Source: an uncultured Bryobacteraceae bacterium
GTDB lineage: Bacteria; Acidobacteriota; Terriglobia; Bryobacterales; Bryobacteraceae
Length of the DNA: 64,000 bases
Assembly: GCA_937924525.1 (NCBI GenBank)
Contig: CALDSU010000005.1
Span: 310,001 to 374,000, forward strand
Direction of reading: 5' to 3'
Positions 40,650 to 51,119 of the stretch are shown in pieces. How positions within the stretch are numbered: position 1 is the first letter of the stretch; each line of letters opens with the position of its first letter. Under the pieces are notes generated by a model, which saw nothing but the letters and a program-made list of their open reading frames with translations, had not been told where the DNA came from and did no database searches. A program made the position numbers and the translations under genes.

Positions 40650-41037
40650 GGCTTTCCCGCAGGCTTCCTCCGCGGGCGTTCCGCGCGTTGACGCTCCGCG
40701 GGCCGGAATGATAAATTCGAAAGTGAACCTACCGCCTTCCTCGGTCGAACGGAAAAGCTGCGGGCAGCTTGCTCGGTTTGAGAAAGGGATGGCGCTCACC
40801 TGGTTCCAACGGTGAGCCGCGGGCGGCAGTTTCCCTCACTCTCTTCTCGCAGTCCCGTTCGGCGGATTTGGCGGAGCGGATGTGTCCGCGACGGCGCGCC
40901 CGTCCTGGTTACGGTGGGGCGCGGGCGGCCCGCAGGCGGTTCGCTGTGTCTTCAGTCCCCGCGGCGACGGGAACGCTCACGCCGTCGAACAAAGCGCAAG
41001 GTACGCTGCACGCATTTACGCTGGGAGGATTCATGGC
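40650..41037. other. Intergenic region between tRNA-Phe and the GT4 gene
   Basis: No supportable coding sequence. A candidate promoter is TTGACG (40688-40693) with GATAAA (40710-40715), 16-bp spacer, which would give the glycosyltransferase operon a leader of roughly 320 bases. The GC-rich repeat CTCCGCGGGC occurs on both sides of the -35 box (about 40668 and 40694) and could form a weak hairpin after the tRNA. The ribosome-binding site GGGAGGA at 41023-41029 sets the downstream start. Confidence 0.35.
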
Positions 41038-43335
41038 ATGATCGAGTTGTCTGAGGCCGCCGGCGTCCGGCCGGAAGCGTCGCGCGGCAAACGCGTCTCG
41101 CTCCGGCGGGTGGCGGTCATAGGCAATTACGCTCCCCGGCGCTGCGGCATCGCCACGTTCACCACCGATCTGTGCGAATCGCTGGCGCGACAGTTTCCCG
41201 AGACCACCTGTCTGGCGCTGCCGGTCAACGACACGGCGGACGGCTACGCCTATCCTCCGCGGGTCCGCTTCGAACTAAGCCAAAACGACCTCGGCTCCTA
41301 CACCACGGCGGCGGATTTCCTGAACGTCAACAATATCGACCTGGTGTGCGTGCAGCACGAGTACGGAATTTACGGCGGACCGGCGGGCAGTCATCTGCTG
41401 GCGCTCCTGCGCGAGTTGCGCATGCCCGTGGTGACCACCCTGCACACGGTGCTGGATGCCCCGGACGCCAACCAGCGCCGGGTGCTGGAGGAATTGGGCC
41501 AGCTTTCCGACCGGCTGGTCGTCATGAGCGGGCGGGGCGTGCGGTTCCTTGAGGAAATTCACGGAATCCCCCGCGACAAGGTGGATCTGATTCCGCACGG
41601 CATCCCGGACGTTCCTTTCGTCGATCCGAACTTCCACAAGGACCAGTTCGGTTTGGAAGGGAAGATCGTCATTCTGACGTTCGGCCTGCTCTCTCCGAAC
41701 AAAGGCATTGAATATGTGGTGCGGGCATTGCCGCCGGTGTTGCGCCGCTTCCCGAATGTCGTCTACGCGGTGGTCGGCGCCACGCACCCGCACATCCAGC
41801 GCCGCGAGGGGGAAACGTATCGCCTCTCGCTGGAACGGCTGGCGCGCAGCCTGGGCATCGACCGCCATGTGATCTTTTACAACCGGTTTGTCAGCCTGGA
41901 GGAACTCCTCAAGTTTATCGGGGCGGCGGACCTGTACATCACCCCGTACTTGAACCGCGCCCAGATTGTCTCCGGCACGCTGGCCTACACCGTGGGCGCG
42001 GGAAAAGCCGTGATCTCCACACCCTACTGGTACGCGGAAGAACTGCTGGCGGAGGACCGGGGAGTGCTGGCGCCGTTTGCGGATGCCGAGGCGATGGCCG
42101 CGCAAATTCTCCGCCTGCTCGAAAACGACGCGGAACGACACGCCATGCGCAAGCGAGCCTATCTGCTGGGACGCCAGATGATTTGGCCGAACGTCGCCCG
42201 CCTCTACATGGCGAGCTTCGAGCGGGCCTGTGAGGAACGCGCCCGCCATCCCCGGCGCGCGTTCCAGGCCAGCACGCTCCAGGACCGCGCCGCCGACTTG
42301 CCCCTGCTCCAACTTCGTCACCTGGGCAATCTCACCGACGGAACCGGCGTCGTGCAGCACGCCATTTTCACCGATCCCCATTACGCCGAGGGCTACACGA
42401 CCGACGACAACGCGCGAGCGCTGGCGCTGGCGGCGCTGCTCGAGGCCGGCGAGGAAGAGGCGCCGCTGCCCAGCCATCGCTATCAGGCTTTCCTCTGGTA
42501 TGCCTTCGACCCCGCAAAAGGCCGTTTTCGCAATTTCCTGGCGTATGACCGGCGCTGGCTCGAGGAGACCGGATCGGAAGATTGCCAGGGCCGGGCATTG
42601 TGGGCTCTGGGTTTGGTGCTGGGGCGCTCGCGGGATGCCGGGCTGCGCGGCTCTGCCGGCCGCCTGTTCGATCTGGCGCTGCCGGCGGCGGAGCGCTTCA
42701 CCAGTCCCCGAGCCTGGGCTTACACCCTGCTGGGCATTCACGAGTACCTCAAGCGCTTTCCGGGCGACCGCGCGGCGCAGACCCTGCGCGAGGCCTTGGT
42801 CCAGAAACTGCTCGATTTGTACCGGCACGCGCACGACGCCGACTGGCTGTGGTTTGAGGACATCCTGAGCTACGATAACGCGCGATTGCCCCATGCGTTG
42901 TTGGTTTCCGGGCGCGACCTGGCGCGGCAGGACGTCGAGGAAACAGGCCTGGCGACGCTCCGGTGGCTGTCCGGAATCCAACGGTGCGGCGAGAACCACT
43001 TTGTGCCGATTGGCAGCAACGGGTTTTTCCGCCGTGGCCAGCAGCGGGCGCGATTCGACCAGCAGCCGATCGAGGCGCAGGCTACGGTTTCGGCTTGCCT
43101 GGAGGCGTGGCGGGTCACCGGCGATGCGCATTGGCGTCAGGAAGCTCAATGCGCTTTCGAGTGGTTCCTCGGGCGTAACGATCTGGGCTTGCCGCTGTAC
43201 GATTCGGCCACGGGCGGATGCCGCGACGGGCTGCACGCCGACCGGGTCAACCAGAACGAGGGCGCCGAGTCCACCCTCAGCTTTCTGCTCGCCCTGGAGG
43301 AAATGCGGCAAGCCAGCCACGTCATCTCGTCCTGA
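41038..43335 (+). CDS. GT4 glycosyltransferase fused to an (alpha/alpha)6-toroid-like domain
   Basis: About 765 aa; the start at 41038 is fixed by GGGAGGA eight bases upstream. The N-terminal part (about 20-390) is a GT-B fold glycosyltransferase of family 4: VAVIGNYAPRRCGIATFTTDL, FGLLSPNKGIEYVVRALP, and the donor-binding end ...YTVGAGKAVISTPYWYAEELL. The C-terminal part (about 410-765) is helical with Trp/Asp-rich motifs (EGYTTDDNARAL, WLWFEDILSYDNARLPHALL, DGLHADRVNQNEGAEST), like a glycosidase toroid. No signal peptide: cytoplasmic. Ten bases later comes a GH130 phosphorylase, suggesting paired synthesis and recycling of a mannose-type glycoside; this is inference. Confidence 0.87.
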   Translation: MIELSEAAGVRPEASRGKRVSLRRVAVIGNYAPRRCGIATFTTDLCESLARQFPETTCLALPVNDTADGYAYPPRVRFELSQNDLGSYTTAADFLNVNNIDLVCVQHEYGIYGGPAGSHLLALLRELRMPVVTTLHTVLDAPDANQRRVLEELGQLSDRLVVMSGRGVRFLEEIHGIPRDKVDLIPHGIPDVPFVDPNFHKDQFGLEGKIVILTFGLLSPNKGIEYVVRALPPVLRRFPNVVYAVVGATHPHIQRREGETYRLSLERLARSLGIDRHVIFYNRFVSLEELLKFIGAADLYITPYLNRAQIVSGTLAYTVGAGKAVISTPYWYAEELLAEDRGVLAPFADAEAMAAQILRLLENDAERHAMRKRAYLLGRQMIWPNVARLYMASFERACEERARHPRRAFQASTLQDRAADLPLLQLRHLGNLTDGTGVVQHAIFTDPHYAEGYTTDDNARALALAALLEAGEEEAPLPSHRYQAFLWYAFDPAKGRFRNFLAYDRRWLEETGSEDCQGRALWALGLVLGRSRDAGLRGSAGRLFDLALPAAERFTSPRAWAYTLLGIHEYLKRFPGDRAAQTLREALVQKLLDLYRHAHDADWLWFEDILSYDNARLPHALLVSGRDLARQDVEETGLATLRWLSGIQRCGENHFVPIGSNGFFRRGQQRARFDQQPIEAQATVSACLEAWRVTGDAHWRQEAQCAFEWFLGRNDLGLPLYDSATGGCRDGLHADRVNQNEGAESTLSFLLALEEMRQASHVISS

Positions 43336-43345
43336 GGAACTGTCT

Positions 43346-44317
43346 GTGCCTGGAAATCAGCATGAAGAACTGATCGTTCGCCACGGGGGCAACCCCATCC
43401 TGACCGCGGCGCAGTGGCCCTATCCGGTGAACACCGTGTTCAACGCCGGGGCGACCCGGTTGCCGGACGGCACGACGCTGCTGCTGTGCCGGGTCGAGGA
43501 GCGAAGCGGGATTTCGCACCTGTGCGCGGCGCGTTCGGCGGACGGCGTCTCCGGATGGGTGATCGACCCGCAGCCGACCCTGGCTCCGGATCCGGAGCGG
43601 TATCCGGAAGAACTGTGGGGCATCGAGGACCCCCGCATCACCTGGGCGCCCGAACTGAACCATTACGTGGTCGCCTATACCTCGTATTCGCGCGGCGGGC
43701 CGGGCGTCTCGCTGGCCCTGACCCAGGACTTCCGCACCTTTGAGCGATATGGCGTCGTGATGCCGCCAGAGGACAAGGACGCCGCGCTGCTTCCGCGGCG
43801 CATTGGCGGGCACTGGGCGTTGGTCCACCGTCCGGTCACGACCTGGCGGGGCGCCCATATCTGGATTTCCTATTCCCCGGACCTGCGGCATTGGGGCAGC
43901 CATCATCTTATCCTGGCCGCGCGGGAAGGCGCCTGGTGGGACGCCAACAAGATTGGCCTCTCGCCGCCGCCCATCGAGACGCCGGAGGGATGGCTGCTCC
44001 TCTATCACGGCGTGCGCCAGACCGCGGCGGGGTGCCTGTACCGGCTGGGTCTGGCCCTGTTTGACCTCGAAGTTCCGGAACGCTGTCTGCTGCGCGGGGA
44101 CGGCTGGATCTTTGCGCCCGAGGAATCTTACGAACGCCACGGCGATGTCGCGAATGTGGTGTTCCCGTGCGGGTACACCGTGGGACCGGACGGCGACCGG
44201 CTTCACTTGTATTACGGCTGCGCGGACACTTGCATCGGACTGGCTACCGCCAGTATTGGCCACTTGCTCGACTGGCTGCGCCGGAACGGCAAGCCGGATT
44301 GCGCCAGCCGGAGATAG
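43346..44317 (+). CDS. GH130-family beta-1,4-mannoside phosphorylase-like protein
   Basis: About 323 aa from a GTG start at 43346, with GAGGA seven bases upstream. It is a five-bladed propeller of glycoside hydrolase family 130. The catalytic acid is expected to be the Asp in GIEDPRITW. Phosphate- and sugar-binding positions are in VFNAGATRLPDG, RHPVTT-like VHRPVTTWRG, WWDANKIGLSPPPI and LYHGVR. Members phosphorolyse beta-1,4- or 1,2-mannosides to mannose-1-phosphate, conserving energy; some are hydrolases. It follows the GT4-toroid gene by 10 bases and very likely shares its transcript and pathway. Confidence 0.88.
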   Translation: MPGNQHEELIVRHGGNPILTAAQWPYPVNTVFNAGATRLPDGTTLLLCRVEERSGISHLCAARSADGVSGWVIDPQPTLAPDPERYPEELWGIEDPRITWAPELNHYVVAYTSYSRGGPGVSLALTQDFRTFERYGVVMPPEDKDAALLPRRIGGHWALVHRPVTTWRGAHIWISYSPDLRHWGSHHLILAAREGAWWDANKIGLSPPPIETPEGWLLLYHGVRQTAAGCLYRLGLALFDLEVPERCLLRGDGWIFAPEESYERHGDVANVVFPCGYTVGPDGDRLHLYYGCADTCIGLATASIGHLLDWLRRNGKPDCASRR

Positions 44318-44390: not shown

Positions 44391-45875
44391 ATGCGAATCT
44401 CGGCTGCCGGAACGTCCTTAGGGGCGTCGGGCCGGCGGGCAGGCGCGTTGCTGGGAGTCGTCTTGCTGGTCGTTCCCACGCACGCCCAGCGCTCCCGCGT
44501 TCCGCTGCCCCCCGAAGTGCGGGCCCCCCTGAAAGAGGCTTTGCAGAAGCCTTACCACGAACTGTTCGAAGAGGCTTCCCGCCTGGAATTCAACGCCGCG
44601 CAGATCGCCGCCATGCGCCGGGTGCTGGAAGAGACCCAGAAGAGCTGCACGGCGCAGTACAAACGCCGCACCGAGGATTTGGAAAAGCAACTCCGCGCGG
44701 AGCAGGCGTCGCTGAAGACCCAAAGCGCGCGCCTGGACGACGCCGAGCGGAAGCAGAAGCATTGCGTCATCCAGAATCTTCGCGCCCTCGGGGCGCAGGC
44801 CCGCGTGCTCGCCGAGCACGCCATTCCGGTGGCGTATGAGAACCGCAAGGCCAAGCTGGAACTCATCGAGAAGTGGCCGGAAGAATGGAGGCGCATCCAG
44901 GCGGAGATCGCGTCCGGCGCCCACCACCAGCGCAAGTGGGGGGACGTGAAGGACATCGGTTTCCGCGACCTGGTTCCCGGGCAGGAGCGGGATATCAAGG
45001 ACGGGCAGGAAGCCGTGCGGCAGATGAAGCTGGCGGGTCTGATGCCCCCGGAGATCGAAAACGAGACCGTAAAGAGCTATGTGACGTCGCTCGCCCAGAA
45101 GGTGGCTCGCCACTCCGATCTTCGGGTGCCGCTGAACGTGACCGTGCTGAATTCCAAAGAGATCAACGCCTTTGCCTTGCCGGGCGGTTTCATTTTCGTG
45201 CAACGCGGCCTGCTGGAGGCGGTGGAGAACGAGTCGCAACTGGCCGGCGTGCTGGCCCACGAACTGGCGCATGTCACCGGACGCCATGGCAACAAGCTCA
45301 TGCGCAAAGCCACGGTCGCTTCCATCATTTATCAGGCGGCCCAGATCGCCGCGGTGATTCTGACCGGCGGCGCCGCGAGCATCGGGATGTATTACGCCTT
45401 GCAGTATGGCTTTTACGGACTGGGTCTGGTGCTCAGTCTCGATATGCTGGGCGTCAGCCGCGAATTCGAGCTGGAGGCCGATCAGTTGGGCGTGCAGTAC
45501 GCCTGGAACGCCGGATTCGATCCGAACGGCTTCATCAAGTTCTTCGACAAGATGGCCACCAAAGAGGGCTATGTCAACGGCCTGAGCTGGTTCCGGACGC
45601 ATCCGCCGTTCTACCAGCGGATGGTGCACAGCAAGCGGGAGATCATGTTTCTGCCGGCCAAGGACGGTTTGGTGGAGAACAGCCCGGAGTTCGCGCGGAT
45701 GAAGGAGGAACTCCAGAAAGTGACCGCGAAAGCCGAGCAGGAGGATAAGGAAAGGCCAAGCCTGCTGGCTCCCGTGCAGGGCTGTCCCGCGCCGGAAAAG
45801 ATCGAATACAAGTCCGGGGACCCGATTGAGACCTTATGTCCCGAGCCAGGAGACGGCAAATCCGCTGGGCGCTGA
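44391..45875 (+). CDS. Secreted M48-family metalloprotease with N-terminal coiled coil
   Basis: A 494-aa zinc metalloprotease. A signal peptide (ending VPTHAQ) is followed by a charged coiled-coil region (about 35-180, with SCTAQYKRRTEDLEKQLRAEQAS). The M48 domain (about 215-420) has the zinc motif HELAH (about 290-294), preceded by INAFALPGGFIFVQRGLL, with the third ligand in REFELEADQLGVQYA. BepA-like members degrade or chaperone outer-membrane proteins, and this one may act in periplasmic quality control. The hydrophobic stretch AAVILTGGAASIGMYYALQYGFYGLG after the active site may associate with membrane. The stop lies 40 bases inside the next gene. Confidence 0.87.
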   Translation: MRISAAGTSLGASGRRAGALLGVVLLVVPTHAQRSRVPLPPEVRAPLKEALQKPYHELFEEASRLEFNAAQIAAMRRVLEETQKSCTAQYKRRTEDLEKQLRAEQASLKTQSARLDDAERKQKHCVIQNLRALGAQARVLAEHAIPVAYENRKAKLELIEKWPEEWRRIQAEIASGAHHQRKWGDVKDIGFRDLVPGQERDIKDGQEAVRQMKLAGLMPPEIENETVKSYVTSLAQKVARHSDLRVPLNVTVLNSKEINAFALPGGFIFVQRGLLEAVENESQLAGVLAHELAHVTGRHGNKLMRKATVASIIYQAAQIAAVILTGGAASIGMYYALQYGFYGLGLVLSLDMLGVSREFELEADQLGVQYAWNAGFDPNGFIKFFDKMATKEGYVNGLSWFRTHPPFYQRMVHSKREIMFLPAKDGLVENSPEFARMKEELQKVTAKAEQEDKERPSLLAPVQGCPAPEKIEYKSGDPIETLCPEPGDGKSAGR

Positions 45876-46756
45876 CGGTCGCGCTGCTGGGCGCTGCTCT
45901 GAGTTGGCCGCAAACGCTGGGCGAGCGCTCCCTCTATTTCACGGTTGAGGAGGGCGACAAGCTGATCGGCGGCCTCGGCGAGCAGAACTTCCGGCTGTAT
46001 GAGGACGGGCTACCGGTTCGTTTTCGGCTGGCGGAACCGGAATCGCCGATCCTGGTGACGCTGCTGGTCGAATACAGCCAGGCTTCCGGACTGTACTTGA
46101 GCGATATGGACGCGGCGCTGCGGCAGTTCATGGAGGCGGCTCCCGAGGGGCACTGGTATTCGCTAGCGACGTTCTCACAAGAATTGCAGATCCATGTCGA
46201 TTTCACCAAACAAAAGGGCGAGATCCTGTCCGCCTACAGCGGGCTGGGCCAGCCGTTCTGGGGCGAGGTGAATACCTACGACGCGGTCTTTGAGGCGTTG
46301 GACAAGCTTGCTCTCCTGCCAGGGAGAAAAGTTCTCGTGTTCATCGGATCGGGGCTGACCACGCTCAGTTCCCGTTCCCTGACCGAGGTGCAGCAGAAAA
46401 TGGAGGCGACGAACGCGACCGTTTTCGTCCTCGGCGCCGGCACGCTGCTGCGCGGCCAGTACGAGCCGTATCTGGGCGCCGCCGCGAGGCTCGATCTGGT
46501 CCAGGCGGAGGCGTTTCTCAACATGTTGGCGAAGAAGAGCGGGGGCCAGGCGTTCTTTCCCCGCTTCCCGGCCGCCTATCGGAATCTCGCGCAGGGAGTG
46601 CTGGCGATGCTCCAGTTGCAGTACCGAATGCTGTACCAGTCCGCCGTCCGTCCGGATCGGAAGTTTCACCGGCTGAGGCTCGAAGCGTTTCAAATCGTCA
46701 ACGATCGCCGGAAGGATTACACGGTGCGGGTCCGGGAGGGATGGCGCTGGTATTGA
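45836..46756 (+). CDS. Secreted VWFA-like protein with altered MIDAS, overlapping the M48 gene
   Basis: A 306-aa protein whose ATG lies 40 bases inside the M48 protease gene, so the two are translationally linked. Signal sequence RWALTVALLGAALSWPQ. The N-terminal beta segment (SLYFTVEEGDKLIGGLGEQNFRLYEDG) and the C-terminus (LQYRMLYQSAVRPDRKFHRLRLE) match the acidobacterial VWFA family. The MIDAS aspartate is replaced: the motif reads VEYSQASG instead of D-x-S-x-S. Metal binding is therefore doubtful. It may act as a substrate adaptor for the protease; this rests on the gene overlap only. Confidence 0.78.
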   Translation: MSRARRRQIRWALTVALLGAALSWPQTLGERSLYFTVEEGDKLIGGLGEQNFRLYEDGLPVRFRLAEPESPILVTLLVEYSQASGLYLSDMDAALRQFMEAAPEGHWYSLATFSQELQIHVDFTKQKGEILSAYSGLGQPFWGEVNTYDAVFEALDKLALLPGRKVLVFIGSGLTTLSSRSLTEVQQKMEATNATVFVLGAGTLLRGQYEPYLGAAARLDLVQAEAFLNMLAKKSGGQAFFPRFPAAYRNLAQGVLAMLQLQYRMLYQSAVRPDRKFHRLRLEAFQIVNDRRKDYTVRVREGWRWY

Positions 46757-46882
46757 GAGCCGGCCCCAAGCCGGCCGGTGCAGTCCGTGTCGAAACTTGA
46801 TGCGGAAAGAGGGTGGCGCGGATGGACAGCCGGGATACGGCTGGGAAACAGGGGGCTGTGAGCCAGGAGAAGGAGAAAACCA

Positions 46883-48412
46883 ATGGAGAAGTCTGTGCGC
46901 GCAGAAGGCAAGGGAGGCCGGTGGGTCCGGCTCCGGGTCCGGACAGCGATCCTGGCGATGCTGATGGCGCTGGGGCTGGGCGGAACGGTCGGATCGTGGC
47001 TCACCGGACGCCGCCCGCAAGGGGTCAGCATCATGATGGCGGCCGCGAACGCGCAGGTCAGCCAGCAAGTTTCCTTCGAGGCGGGTTTGACGCCGGTGGT
47101 CGAGCGCGTGGTCCCCGCCGTGGTGAATATCTCTTCAGAAAAGATTGTACGGTCCCCGGATACGGGACCGGCCGCGCCGTTCTTTTTCGACCCGTTTTTC
47201 CGGGAATTCTTCGGCGACGAATCCCCCTGGCGCTATCACCAGCCCCGGGAGCGCCGCGAACAAAGCCTTGGCTCGGGTGTGATTCTCACGGCGGACGGCT
47301 ACCTGCTGACGAACAACCATGTGGTTGAGGCGGCTTCCGAAATCCGGGTTTCGCTGGCGGACAAGCGGGAGCTGAAGGCAAAAGTGGTGGGCGCCGATCC
47401 GAGAACGGACATCGCGGTGTTGAAGGTGGAGGAGAAGAACCTGCCGGTGCTGCCCATCGCCGACTCGTCGCAGGTGAAGGCCGGGCAGTTCGTCCTGGCC
47501 GTCGGGAACCCCTTCGGCCTGAACCAGACCGTGACCATGGGGATCGTCAGCGCGATCGGCCGCGGCAATCTCAGTATCGTCGACTATGAAGACTTCATTC
47601 AAACCGACGCGCCGATCAATCCCGGCAATTCGGGAGGCGCGCTGGTGGATATCCGGGGAGCGCTGATCGGCATCAATACCGCCATCCTTTCCCGCAGCGG
47701 CGGCAATCAGGGAATTGGCTTCGCCGTGCCCATCAACATGGCGCGGGACGTGATGGAGCGGCTGATCAAGGACGGCAAGGTAATCAGGGGGTGGCTGGGA
47801 GTATTCATCCAGCCGGTGACGCCGGCGATCGCGCGCGCGATGGGGCTGGAGAAGCCGAGGGGCGCGCTGGTCGGCGATGTGTCTCCCGGAAGCCCGGCGG
47901 AAAAGGCCGGTCTCCGGCGGGGCGATATCGTGCTGAGCTTCAACGGGCAAGCCATCGAGGAAACGCGGGAACTGAGTCTGAAGGTGGCGATGCAGGCGCC
48001 GGGGAGCAGCGCGCGGCTGGGCGTGCATCGGGATGGCCGGGAGATCGAGGTGACTGTGGTGCTGGGAGAGCAACCCTCCGAGGGCCGCGCTTCCCTGCCG
48101 GGCAGGGAGGCGGAAGCGGAACCGGTGCTGGAGGGAGTGGCGGTGACGGACCTGACGGGGCAGTTGCGCCGCCAGTTGGGTCTGCCCCCCGGAGTGGCCG
48201 GCGTGGCGGTAAGCGCCGTGCGCCCGGGAACGCCGGCGGCGGAGGCGGGCTTGCGGCGGGGCGACGTGATCCAGGAAGTGAACCGGCGGGCGGTAACCAG
48301 CGTAGCGGAGTACGAGCGAGCCATCCGCCAGGCAGGTCGAGAGCCCGTGCTGCTGCTGATCCATCGCGAGGGCAACACGATGTTCCTGGTGGTGGAGCCC
48401 CGCGCGCGGTGA
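46883..48412 (+). CDS. Do/HtrA-family periplasmic serine protease (DegP-like)
   Basis: A 509-aa protease-chaperone. N-terminal membrane anchor or signal (about 18-40). Trypsin-like domain with the catalytic triad visible: His in [10 protein letters not shown], Asp in RTDIAVLKV and Ser in [11 protein letters not shown]. Two PDZ domains follow: about 300-385 ([25 protein letters not shown]) and 415-505 ([24 protein letters not shown]). It degrades or refolds damaged envelope proteins. An insertion between the N-terminus and protease domain ([13 protein letters not shown]) is the regulatory loop typical of Do proteases. It lies directly upstream of clpB. Confidence 0.93.
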
Positions 48413-48419
48413 ACCATGC

Positions 48420-48443
48420 CGCTCCCCGCATGGCCGGGGAGCG
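48420..48443 (+). promoter_or_regulatory. Nine-bp perfect hairpin between htrA-like gene and clpB
   Basis: CGCTCCCCG (48420-48428) pairs perfectly with CGGGGAGCG (48435-48443) around the loop CATGGC. It starts 8 bases after the htrA-like stop. No run of T follows, so it is not a standard intrinsic terminator; it could still weaken read-through, or shape the 5' leader of clpB (67 bases before the ATG). No CIRCE element is visible. Confidence 0.4.
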
Positions 48444-48509
48444 CGCTTTCGGCGAGATGCGGAAAGCCAGCCTGCGTGTCCGCCGGCGCGAGGGAGAAGA
48501 GACGAAACT

Positions 48510-51119
48510 ATGGACATCAATCGATTTACGGAGAAGGTGCAGGAGGCGGTGCGCGCCGCGCAAACCAAAGCCATCCGGCACAGTCATCAGCAATTGGATG
48601 TCGAACACCTGCTGGCCGCGCTGCTCGAGCAGGAAGGCGGCCTCGCGTCGGTCCTGCTGGCCAAAGCGGGCGTGGCGGCCGACCTGCTGCGGCAGCGGCT
48701 GGAGGAGGAGTTGGACCGGATGCCGAAGGTGGCCGGCCCCACAGGCGCGCCGCCGGATCAGGTGTACGTCACCGGCAGGCTCAATCGCTTGCTGGTCCAG
48801 GCGGAGGACGAGGCCAAGAAGTTGCGGGACGAATATGTTTCGGTCGAGCACATTCTTCTCGCGGCAACCGAAGACAAAGGGCCCGCCGGGCGGCTGCTGT
48901 CCCAAACGGGCGTCACCCGCGAGCGCCTGATGCACGCCCTCCGCGAGGTGCGCGGCAGCCAGCGCGTCACCACGCCCACGCCCGAGGCCACCTATCAGTC
49001 GCTGGAACGCTACGGGCGCGACCTCACGGAACTGGCCCGGCAAGGCAAGCTCGATCCCGTCATCGGCCGCGACGAGGAGATCCGGCGGGTAATCCAGGTG
49101 CTGTCGCGGCGCACCAAAAACAATCCGGTGCTGATCGGTGAGCCGGGCGTGGGCAAGACCGCGATTGTGGAAGGCCTGGCGCAAAGGATCGTGCGCGGCG
49201 ACGTGCCCGAGGGGCTGAAGGAAAAACGCATCGTCGCGCTCGACATGGGGGCGCTGATCGCCGGAGCCAAGTACCGCGGCGAGTTCGAGGAGCGCCTGAA
49301 GGCGGTGCTCAAGGAGGTCCAGGAGTCCGAAGGCGGAGTGATCCTGTTCATCGACGAATTGCACACCGTGGTGGGGGCAGGCAAGGCCGAGGGCGCCATG
49401 GATGCGGGCAACCTGCTCAAGCCGATGCTGGCCCGGGGCGAACTGCACTGCATCGGGGCCACCACGCTCGACGAGTACCGCCAGCACATTGAGAAAGACG
49501 CGGCGTTGGAGCGGCGCTTCCAGCCCGTCCTGGTCGACCAGCCGTCGGTCGAGGACACCATCTCCATCCTGCGCGGGCTCAAGGAGCGCTACGAGGTCCA
49601 TCATGGCGTCCGGATCAAGGATTCCGCGCTGGTGGCCGCCGCCACGCTTTCGCACCGCTACATCTCTGACCGGTTTCTGCCCGATAAGGCGATTGACCTG
49701 GTCGACGAAGCGGCGGCCAAGCTTCGCACGGAAATCGACTCGATGCCCGCCGAACTCGACGAGATTCTCCGCCGCGTGATGCAGCTGGAAATTGAGCGGG
49801 AAGCACTGAAGAAAGAGACCGACGAAGCCTCCCGGGAACGGCTGGCGAAGCTCGAAAAAGAGCTGGCCGGCCTGCGGGCGGAAGCGGACGCGATGAAAGC
49901 CAAGTGGCAGGCTGAAAAGCGCGCAGTGCAGCGGCTGCGCGCGCTGCGCGAGCAGATCGAGCAAGTGAAGATCGACATCGAAAAAGCCGAACGGGAGTAC
50001 GATCTGAACAAGGCCGCGGAGCTGAAGTACGGCACGCTAACGCAATTGGAGCACCAGCTCACGCAGGAATCCGAGCAGTTTGCGCGCAAGCAGGCGGGGG
50101 CGGCGCTCATCAAAGAAGAAGTGGACGAAGAGGATATCGCCGAGGTGGTCAGCCGCTGGACCGGCGTCCCGGTGGCCAAGCTGCTGGAAGGCGAGGTCCA
50201 AAAGCTGCTGCATCTGGCCGAGGTCCTGCACAAGCGGGTGATCGGGCAGGATGAGGCGGTGGACGCGGTCGCCGAGGCGGTAGTGCGCGCCCGGTCCGGC
50301 CTGAAGGATCCCAACCGGCCCGTCGGCAGCTTCATCTTTCTCGGGCCCACCGGCGTCGGCAAGACCGAGCTGGCCCGGGCGCTGGCGGAATTTCTGTTCG
50401 ACGACGAGCGCGCCATGATCCGGATCGATATGTCCGAGTACCAGGAAAAGCACACCGTCGCCCGCCTGATCGGCGCGCCGCCCGGCTACGTCGGCTTCGA
50501 GGAGGGCGGCCAGCTCACCGAAGCGGTGCGCCGCCGGCCGTATTGCGTGGTCCTGTTTGACGAGATCGAAAAAGCGCACCACGACGTGTTCAACGTGATG
50601 TTGCAGATCCTCGACGACGGGCGGCTGACCGACGGGCACGGCCGTACGGTGGATTTCAAAAATACCATCCTCTTGATGACCTCCAACATTGGCAGCCAGC
50701 GCATTCTGGACTACCGCGGAGCGTTTGGCGGACGCGACTACGAGCGGATGAAGGAAGCGGTCCTCGAAGAAGTCCGGCGCTTCTTCCGGCCGGAGTTTCT
50801 CAACCGGGTGGACGAAATCATTGTGTTCCACGCCTTATCCGAGGAGCACCTGATGCGCATCGTGGACATTCAGCTCGAGCGCCTGCGCGCGCGCCTGGCC
50901 GAGCGCCACATCACCCTGGAGTTGACGCCGGAAGCCGGCCGTCACCTGGTGCGCATCGGCTATGATCCGTCATACGGGGCGCGTCCCCTGAAAAGGGCGA
51001 TTCAAAAGAATCTGGAAACGCGGCTGGGACGGATGCTGCTCGAGGGCGCGGTGCGGGATGGCCAGCACGTCCGCGTGGAGTACGACGGCGGCGAGGACAA
51101 GCTGAGTTTCCGGACGTGA
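48510..51119 (+). CDS. clpB: ATP-dependent disaggregase ClpB
   Basis: An 869-aa Hsp104/ClpB chaperone that, with DnaK, pulls polypeptides out of aggregates. Clp-N domain (about 1-145), first AAA+ module with Walker A GEPGVGKT (about 211) and Walker B VILFIDE. A middle coiled-coil domain (about 410-525, [20 protein letters not shown]... to [11 protein letters not shown]) sets it apart from ClpA/ClpC. Second AAA+ module with GPTGVGKT (about 612) and arginine-finger regions. The MD motif region is complete, so a functional disaggregase is expected. A weak purine-rich GAAGAGA stretch precedes the ATG by 7 bases. Confidence 0.98.

Follow-up and report, generated by a model that had tools for sequence, protein, structure and literature searches.

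A two-gene module of a GT4-toroid fusion and a GH130 enzyme as a possible cytoplasmic mannoside turnover unit

Several described systems use the enzyme types considered here (throughout, papers are cited for the portions consulted). The Thermoanaerobacter cluster Teth514_1786-1789 encodes a GT4 glycosyltransferase, a guanylyltransferase, and two β-1,2-mannoside phosphorylases (PMC4264767), and Leishmania keeps an intracellular mannose store, mannogen, run by mannose-1-phosphate enzymes of family GT108 (PMC8950772). The mycobacterial methylmannose polysaccharide system has a GT-B mannosyltransferase, ManT, and a toroid hydrolase, MmpH, whose products are elongated again; a glucose system with GT84 places a transferase, an (α/α)6 toroid, and a phosphorylase within one unit. 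Here, we describe two adjacent genes that encode a GT4 domain fused to a toroid and a GH130 enzyme. They lie in a 64,000-nucleotide stretch (the window) of contig CALDSU010000005.1 (positions 310,001 to 374,000) from the 5.52-Mb genome of an uncultured Bryobacteraceae bacterium of the Acidobacteriota; coordinates are those of the window unless a locus number precedes them, and all window features described are on the plus strand.

We propose, with a probability of roughly 0.4, that the pair is a unit for mannoside turnover in the cytoplasm, with synthesis and phosphorolytic recycling fed by GDP-mannose. The GT4 domain would extend a growing or primed mannoside, most likely with mannose taken from GDP-mannose. 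The tethered toroid, as a glycosidase or transglycosylase, would trim, release, or rearrange the chain through the regions of Asp456/Asp457 and Glu744. The GH130 enzyme would take off β-mannose, most likely β-1,2 linked, with phosphate to give α-mannose-1-phosphate, or could instead lay β-mannose down in reverse; a mannose-1-phosphate guanylyltransferase (GMP) can convert mannose-1-phosphate back to GDP-mannose. The pair merits a name, although its parts come from known families; a literature search, with subscription papers mostly outside its coverage, recognized no publication on the fusion or the pair.

The first gene (41038 to 43335; 765 amino acids [aa], ATG start) is supported by its open frame, a ribosome-binding-like gggagga read directly at 41023 to 41029, Pfam matches, and four relatives that are 56 to 71% identical. 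The frame is open back to a GTG at 40882, which we do not favor as the start because the ATG has its own ribosome site. Pfam places Glyco_transf_4 at residues 37 to 189 (E = 2e-13) and Glycos_transf_1 at residues 201 to 375 (E = 2.9e-17), and the GT-B glycosyltransferase domain (∼residues 24 to 401; 41107 to 42240) matches MshA, PimB', and PimA in Foldseek. By Pfam match (GT4/GT1) and GT-B fold, the N-terminal domain is a GT4 member. A flexible linker follows (residues 404 to 418, with pLDDT of <50 at 408 to 418; 42247 to 42291), and residues 411 to 765 (42268 to 43332) are predicted to form an (α/α)6 toroid (model pLDDT, 86; pTM, 0.90) that has matches in known folds. Pfam found no family for residues 400 to 765 at E values up to 10, nor for the toroid at E values up to 1. 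The model of the whole protein predicts two well-folded domains whose mutual placement is not fixed (pTM, 0.54). The original prediction had joined a GT4 domain to a toroid-like domain in one protein and had named the next gene as GH130; the Pfam matches and the predicted barrel bear out the former, and the latter proved correct. The GH130 mannoside phosphorylase-like gene (43346 to 44317; 323 aa) begins with a GTG 10 bases past the stop of the fusion gene, behind a ribosome-binding-like gaggaa at 43334 to 43339 (also read directly), and matches PF04041 (E = 8.8e-52; 176.5 bits against a gathering score of 26) and, in the PDB, TM1225 (E = 1.4e-55). Neither protein has a hydrophobic segment (segment scan; a signal-peptide predictor was not run), in line with the cytoplasmic location first suggested. 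A promoter search ahead of the pair found one candidate versus 0.6 expected by chance, from which nothing can be concluded.

The pair is widespread. A scan of named genomes with A1, an alignment built from five fusion proteins, gave 592 matching stretches, 575 of them relatives; the best 80 are referred to as the named loci. With six of them excluded for having <1,000 bases downstream (two of the six show a partial GH130), 67 of 74 usable loci carry GH130 on the same strand, starting at most 2.8 kb downstream, with a median gap between matches of 66 bases. The commonest arrangement (46/74) is the GT4-toroid gene with a GH130 of the window's type alone; elsewhere, the GH130 is longer, another GT4 is present, or the four genes occur together, as they do in Acidobacteriaceae bacterium KBS 96. 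A plasmid of Ilyobacter that is typed as conjugative has the four-gene set, and a Deinococcus plasmid carries the GT4-toroid gene, a second GT4, and a window-type GH130. A toroid match was found in 53 of 297 acidobacterial genomes; PF04041 is present in 51 of these 53 versus 8 of 80 toroid-free genomes, the latter searched out of 244. Among the 52 genomes with a toroid match of ≥700 bases (G307, with a shorter match, was left out), 46 have GH130 within 1.5 kb of the toroid, and it lies downstream on the same strand for 39 of the 47 adjacent toroid copies. By the labels of sampled tree rows and plasmids, the pair occurs in at least 10 phyla; many of these genomes are metagenome bins, and single labels may be wrong. 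Restriction of the pair to the window's lineage is rejected, since relatives are found widely in other genomes.

The toroid retains its candidate catalytic acids almost throughout. Among the matches listed, the closest solved structure is YPO2471 (PDB 7tem; Z = 33.8, 21% identity), with all others at ≤28.5. They include a Vibrio endoglucanase-related protein and the exo-glucosidase/glucosaminidase VC0615 (both with Z of ∼28), the GH76 mannanase BT2949 (28.1), cellobiose 2-epimerases (26.5 to 27.9), the GH9 enzyme PBPRA0520 (23.6), and MmpH (22.9); toroids of GH144, GH162, and GH189 are unnamed among the 50 fold matches listed, which excludes none of these families. In an alignment of 82 of the 117 toroid matches, Asp46, Asp47, Asp105, Glu197, Asp264, Asp320, and Glu334 (domain numbering; protein residues 456, 457, 515, 607, 674, 730, and 744) are invariant. 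We also counted these acids in the tblastn alignments of 112 regions (80 named, 12 distant, and 20 plasmid). Asp456 and Asp457 of GYTTDDNARA (42403 to 42408), a candidate catalytic acid region, are each kept in 111; Asp515 (42580 to 42582) in 110; Glu607 in 108; and Asp674 in 107. The motif DGLHADRVNQNEGAEST (residues 730 to 746; 43225 to 43275), present as originally quoted, is a candidate catalytic base region, and its Asp730 and Glu744 are each found in all 112. A generally dead domain, as loss of these acids in orthologues would have implied, is rejected: the acids are kept in nearly every region, and one distant toroid (L163) is the exception at 456, 457, and 515. The domain shares the (α/α)6 fold of the 2-epimerases, and an ordinary sugar 2-epimerase is a less favored reading. 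We looked for the catalytic histidine pair of N-acylglucosamine and cellobiose 2-epimerases; in the sequence alignments, none of the columns of the last helix that are conserved at 90% is a His, and His619 is present in 43 of 85 sequences. MmpH, a toroid that hydrolyzes mannan, uses as its acid Asp47 or Asp50, located ahead of the second helix in a loop (PMC9883506). The position of Asp456/Asp457 suggests a parallel with this acid; judged with no superposition, the MmpH base does not fall clearly on Glu744. Taken as a whole, the original interpretation is partly supported, as to the fusion, its GH130 partner, the retained acids, and the lack of hydrophobic segments. The pair is not confined to the window genome.

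The residues of the GH130 protein point to a phosphorylase. We set it against BT3780 and the printed chain segments of seven solved enzymes; at the nine columns considered, its residues are Asn, Arg, Glu94, Asp95, Lys144, Arg, Lys, His, and Asp. Three of these (Arg, Lys, and His) occupy the columns of UhgbMP residues 168, 212, and 231, which probably bind phosphate, and Gly is found at the columns of BT3780 residues 227 and 268. At these columns, the window-type sequences carry Arg, either Lys or Arg, and His, respectively, and all 51 of them have the active-site Asp (Asp104 of UhgbMP, Asp95 here). In GH130 hydrolases, the basic phosphate residues are swapped for carboxylates (PMC4599007). With its basic columns kept and the hydrolase Glu pair absent, the window enzyme would follow the phosphorylase rule, and a hydrolase is not favored by the residues at the phosphate-site columns. 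As to linkage, Glu94 and Asp95 (43625 to 43630) are the β-1,2-type Glu and the invariant GH130 Asp, and Lys144 (43775 to 43777) falls in the column of BT3780 Lys199, which Cuskin and colleagues consider a likely determinant of β-1,2 specificity; the Glu, equivalent to BT3780 Glu141, separates their group from GH130_1 and GH130_2 (PMC4599007). Across the window-type enzymes, the window's included, the Glu is found in 51/51 and the Lys in 50/51. We conclude that the window GH130 is a phosphorylase of probable, not proven, β-1,2 type.

A sister version of the pair on plasmids is accompanied by genes for mannose-phosphate and GDP-mannose metabolism. Of 29 plasmid places with a toroid, 20 were read, and 19 remained once L192, whose toroid lacks a GT4 domain, was left out. 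GH130 is in the same region in all 19, one of which has a broken GT4-toroid gene, and 11 contain at least one mannose-phosphate or GDP-mannose gene (L171, L172, L175, L179, L180, L181, L182, L187, L188, L189, and L191). One strand of Sphingobium yanoikuyae pSES220 reads groES-groEL-GMP-manA-GT4tor-GH130-PMM, where manA encodes mannose-6-phosphate isomerase and PMM is phosphomannomutase, and the order is identical in S. bisphenolicum pBAR3. The pSES220 GMP clears its NCBIfam cutoff, three plasmid isomerases match manA below cutoff, and the plasmid mutase matches PGM/PMM domains, which do not settle its sugar. Given these genes beside the sister version, recycling of mannose-1-phosphate, as originally proposed, would be a natural reading; the plasmid context would reach the window pair by homology, from a few alphaproteobacterial lineages with the long GH130. 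Closer to the window, the relative G005 has a GMP-like gene ∼5 kb from its GH130 orthologue (78% identical), on a contig that ends there, so that an adjoining GT4-toroid gene is not visible. Another contig of the window genome encodes a GMP-like protein that scores 324.2 bits, under the cutoff of 372.95 for the bifunctional family.

The plasmids also show other arrangements. The GT4-toroid gene on a Sphingomonas paeninsulae plasmid is split over several frames (L191, 7147 to 9358), and GH130 and a mannose isomerase gene persist beside it. On two Rhizobium plasmids (L176, 12658 to 13791; L183, 10658 to 11788), a gene for an AGE-type sugar epimerase follows the pair. The Croceicoccus marinus plasmid of L192 (6977 to 8020) encodes its toroid protein with no GH130 neighbor.

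Protein quality-control genes are found near the pair as well. GroEL or DnaK is close by in 7 of the 19 plasmid regions (L175, L179, L180, L181, L182, L187, and L189), two of which additionally carry Hsp20 genes, and GroEL was matched in 6 of the 80 named loci. Twenty background stretches gave no GroEL and one DnaK; with 0.40 Mb of acidobacterial DNA as background for 1.16 Mb of mixed-origin loci, the enrichment is suggestive only. In L175, L179, L180, L181, and L182, all from sphingomonad plasmids (four of the five typed as conjugative), the module lies beside GroES/GroEL or GrpE/DnaK; three of these plasmids may resemble transmissible heat-resistance islands. In the window, genes for an M48 peptidase, a VWA-domain protein, an HtrA-like protease, and ClpB lie downstream of the pair on its strand (44391 to 51119).

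Several observations weigh against a mannoside turnover unit, the most serious of which is chemical. GT4 is a retaining family that forms α bonds and GH130 needs a β bond, so one bond can hardly serve both enzymes: either the GT4 domain supplies a primer or core and the β part is left to GH130, or the GT4 domain departs from its family. This conflict is what holds down our confidence in the turnover unit and in the polymer considered below. The donor site is also atypical. By alignment to PimA, the EX7E region (residues 309 to 317; 41962 to 41988) has no Glu pair, its Gln309, Ser312, and Gly313 being invariant, and at residues 217 to 222 (41686 to 41703), Leu217 takes the place of the donor-site Arg of PimA and MshA, with only Lys222 retained. 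That Arg holds the pyrophosphate in PimA and MshA; ManT, an active enzyme, likewise lacks it, but the ribose-binding Glu of the EX7E pair is essential in ManT, whose Glu321Ala and Lys240Ala variants are inactive (PMC9883506). Leu217, Lys222, Gln309, Ser312, and Gly313 are each conserved in 111 of the 111 regions having a GT domain (tblastn alignments), which argues for an unusual working donor site, not a dead one. The same genome encodes a GT4-like domain joined, by eye, to a methyltransferase-looking domain (L003, 649 to 2631). On reading, it too seems to lack the second Glu of EX7E, so the missing motif may mark a wider GT4 branch and not be special to the GT4-toroid family.

Further contrary points concern linkage, association, and context. 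The window GH130 misses the NCBIfam β-1,2 cutoffs (NF050092, 208.8 of 550 bits; NF052550, 186.3 of 450 bits), its best PDB match, TM1225, is listed as a β-1,4 enzyme, and its clade falls outside the β-1,2 references and beside β-1,4 ones (support, 91/83) in a tree whose references are partial chains and whose four β-1,2 references fall in two places. Seven of the 74 usable loci have no GH130 within 2.8 kb (L038, L047, L062, L072, L086, L095, and L096), of which L047, L062, and L095 each have one farther away. In the toroid of L163, Asp456, Asp457, and Asp515 are replaced by Ala, Leu, and Glu; the L163 genome holds two GT4-toroid copies, and the better-matching copy is the one without these acids. 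The plasmid link concerns another, longer GH130 version, and GMP, ManA, and PMM were matched in none of the 80 named loci. Few lineages account for the chaperone association, and of the six GroEL matches, the one in L056 is fragmentary and fused to a response-regulator domain. The M48 peptidase, HtrA-like protease, and ClpB of the window are unmatched in the stretches of five relatives (L017 to L021).

The conflict of α and β bonds would be resolved if the pair made no polymer but a small protectant, such as a mannosylated di- or trisaccharide or glycoside: the GT4 domain would make an α-linked core from a nucleotide sugar, GH130 would add a single β-mannose from mannose-1-phosphate or remove it, and the toroid would clear the core. 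Phosphorolysis by GH130 is reversible (PMC4264767), Uhgb_MS, a GH130 among the PDB matches, is titled a mannoside synthase, and the neighboring stress genes would suit a protectant. However, toroids of this kind probably often bind oligosaccharides, and the versions with four genes (two each for GT4 and GH130) may suggest longer products; we regard a small protectant as a serious but unlikely alternative.

The genes around the pair bear on two other explanations. Fourteen neighbor clusters are present in ≥5 of the 80 named loci, and one representative of each was scanned with Pfam. The families found were OmpA, Crp-type and response regulators, histidine kinase, Ysc84, chaperonin, one ABC ATPase type (7 loci), a zinc phospholipase C domain, and a WXXGXW repeat; four clusters have no family. 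In a salvage route, as proposed for the Thermoanaerobacter cluster with its two GH130 enzymes, guanylyltransferase, and GT4 (PMC4264767), GH130 would phosphorolyse imported β-mannosides, sparing ATP, and the GT4-toroid protein would spend the resulting GDP-mannose on an unrelated glycan. Yet no sugar importer was recognized among the 14 representatives, with the ABC ATPase and the clusters without a family noted above, and the two genes keep together across at least 10 labeled phyla, so that we consider salvage quite improbable. In a cell envelope or exopolysaccharide pathway, the toroid and GH130 would provide quality control. Although GT4 enzymes commonly build envelope glycans, such a pathway is the poorest candidate and very unlikely, as no flippase or polymerase was recognized among these representatives and neither protein has a hydrophobic segment.

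An extension of the mannoside turnover unit, speculative and itself unlikely in view of the bond conflict, is that bacteria of at least 10 phyla have an equivalent of glycogen made of mannose. This would be a β-1,2-mannan kept inside the cell and linked to stress, built by the unusual GT4-toroid protein and recycled by GH130 as mannose-1-phosphate; its genes would have spread in part on conjugative plasmids, next to those for chaperones. The lack of EX7E at the donor site would then be the sign of a GT-B transferase whose donor chemistry differs. If true, many soil and sediment bacteria would have a glycogen-like mannose reserve or protectant behind annotations such as "glycosyltransferase family 4 protein" or "glycoside hydrolase family 130 protein." A large toroid family that lacks a Pfam name would gain a function, and GH130 genes outside mannan-degrading loci would gain a role, tied to plasmids that also carry chaperone genes.

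Compared with the systems introduced above, the window pair shares parts with each. YPO2471, the closest solved toroid, has the VNxNxGAEST tail in common with the window toroid; it is titled a putative exported protein, its chain has no GT domain, and a literature search found no function for it. The GT84 system resembles the pair in its combination of transferase, toroid, and phosphorylase but, as described, handles glucose with a membrane protein and another phosphorylase family, whereas the window proteins, read here as acting on mannose, match GT4 and GH130 in Pfam and lack hydrophobic segments. The Thermoanaerobacter cluster encodes GH130 enzymes that bear the identical Glu and Lys, close to genes for a GT4 and for GDP-mannose metabolism; unlike the window, it has ABC transporter genes, the description consulted mentions no toroid (PMC4264767), and in our tree, the window GH130 forms a clade separate from its enzymes. 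ManT is among the Foldseek matches of the GT4 domain, and the ManT/MmpH system likewise combines a GT-B mannosyltransferase with a toroid; by the account consulted, it differs in having separate proteins, methyltransferases in the cluster, an α-1,4 chain, and both motif Glu residues in ManT. The likeness to Leishmania mannogen is that of an intracellular mannose store run by mannose-1-phosphate enzymes (PMC8950772); there, GT108 proteins both transfer and phosphorolyse, whereas the window pair would split these roles over a GT4-toroid fusion and a GH130 enzyme.

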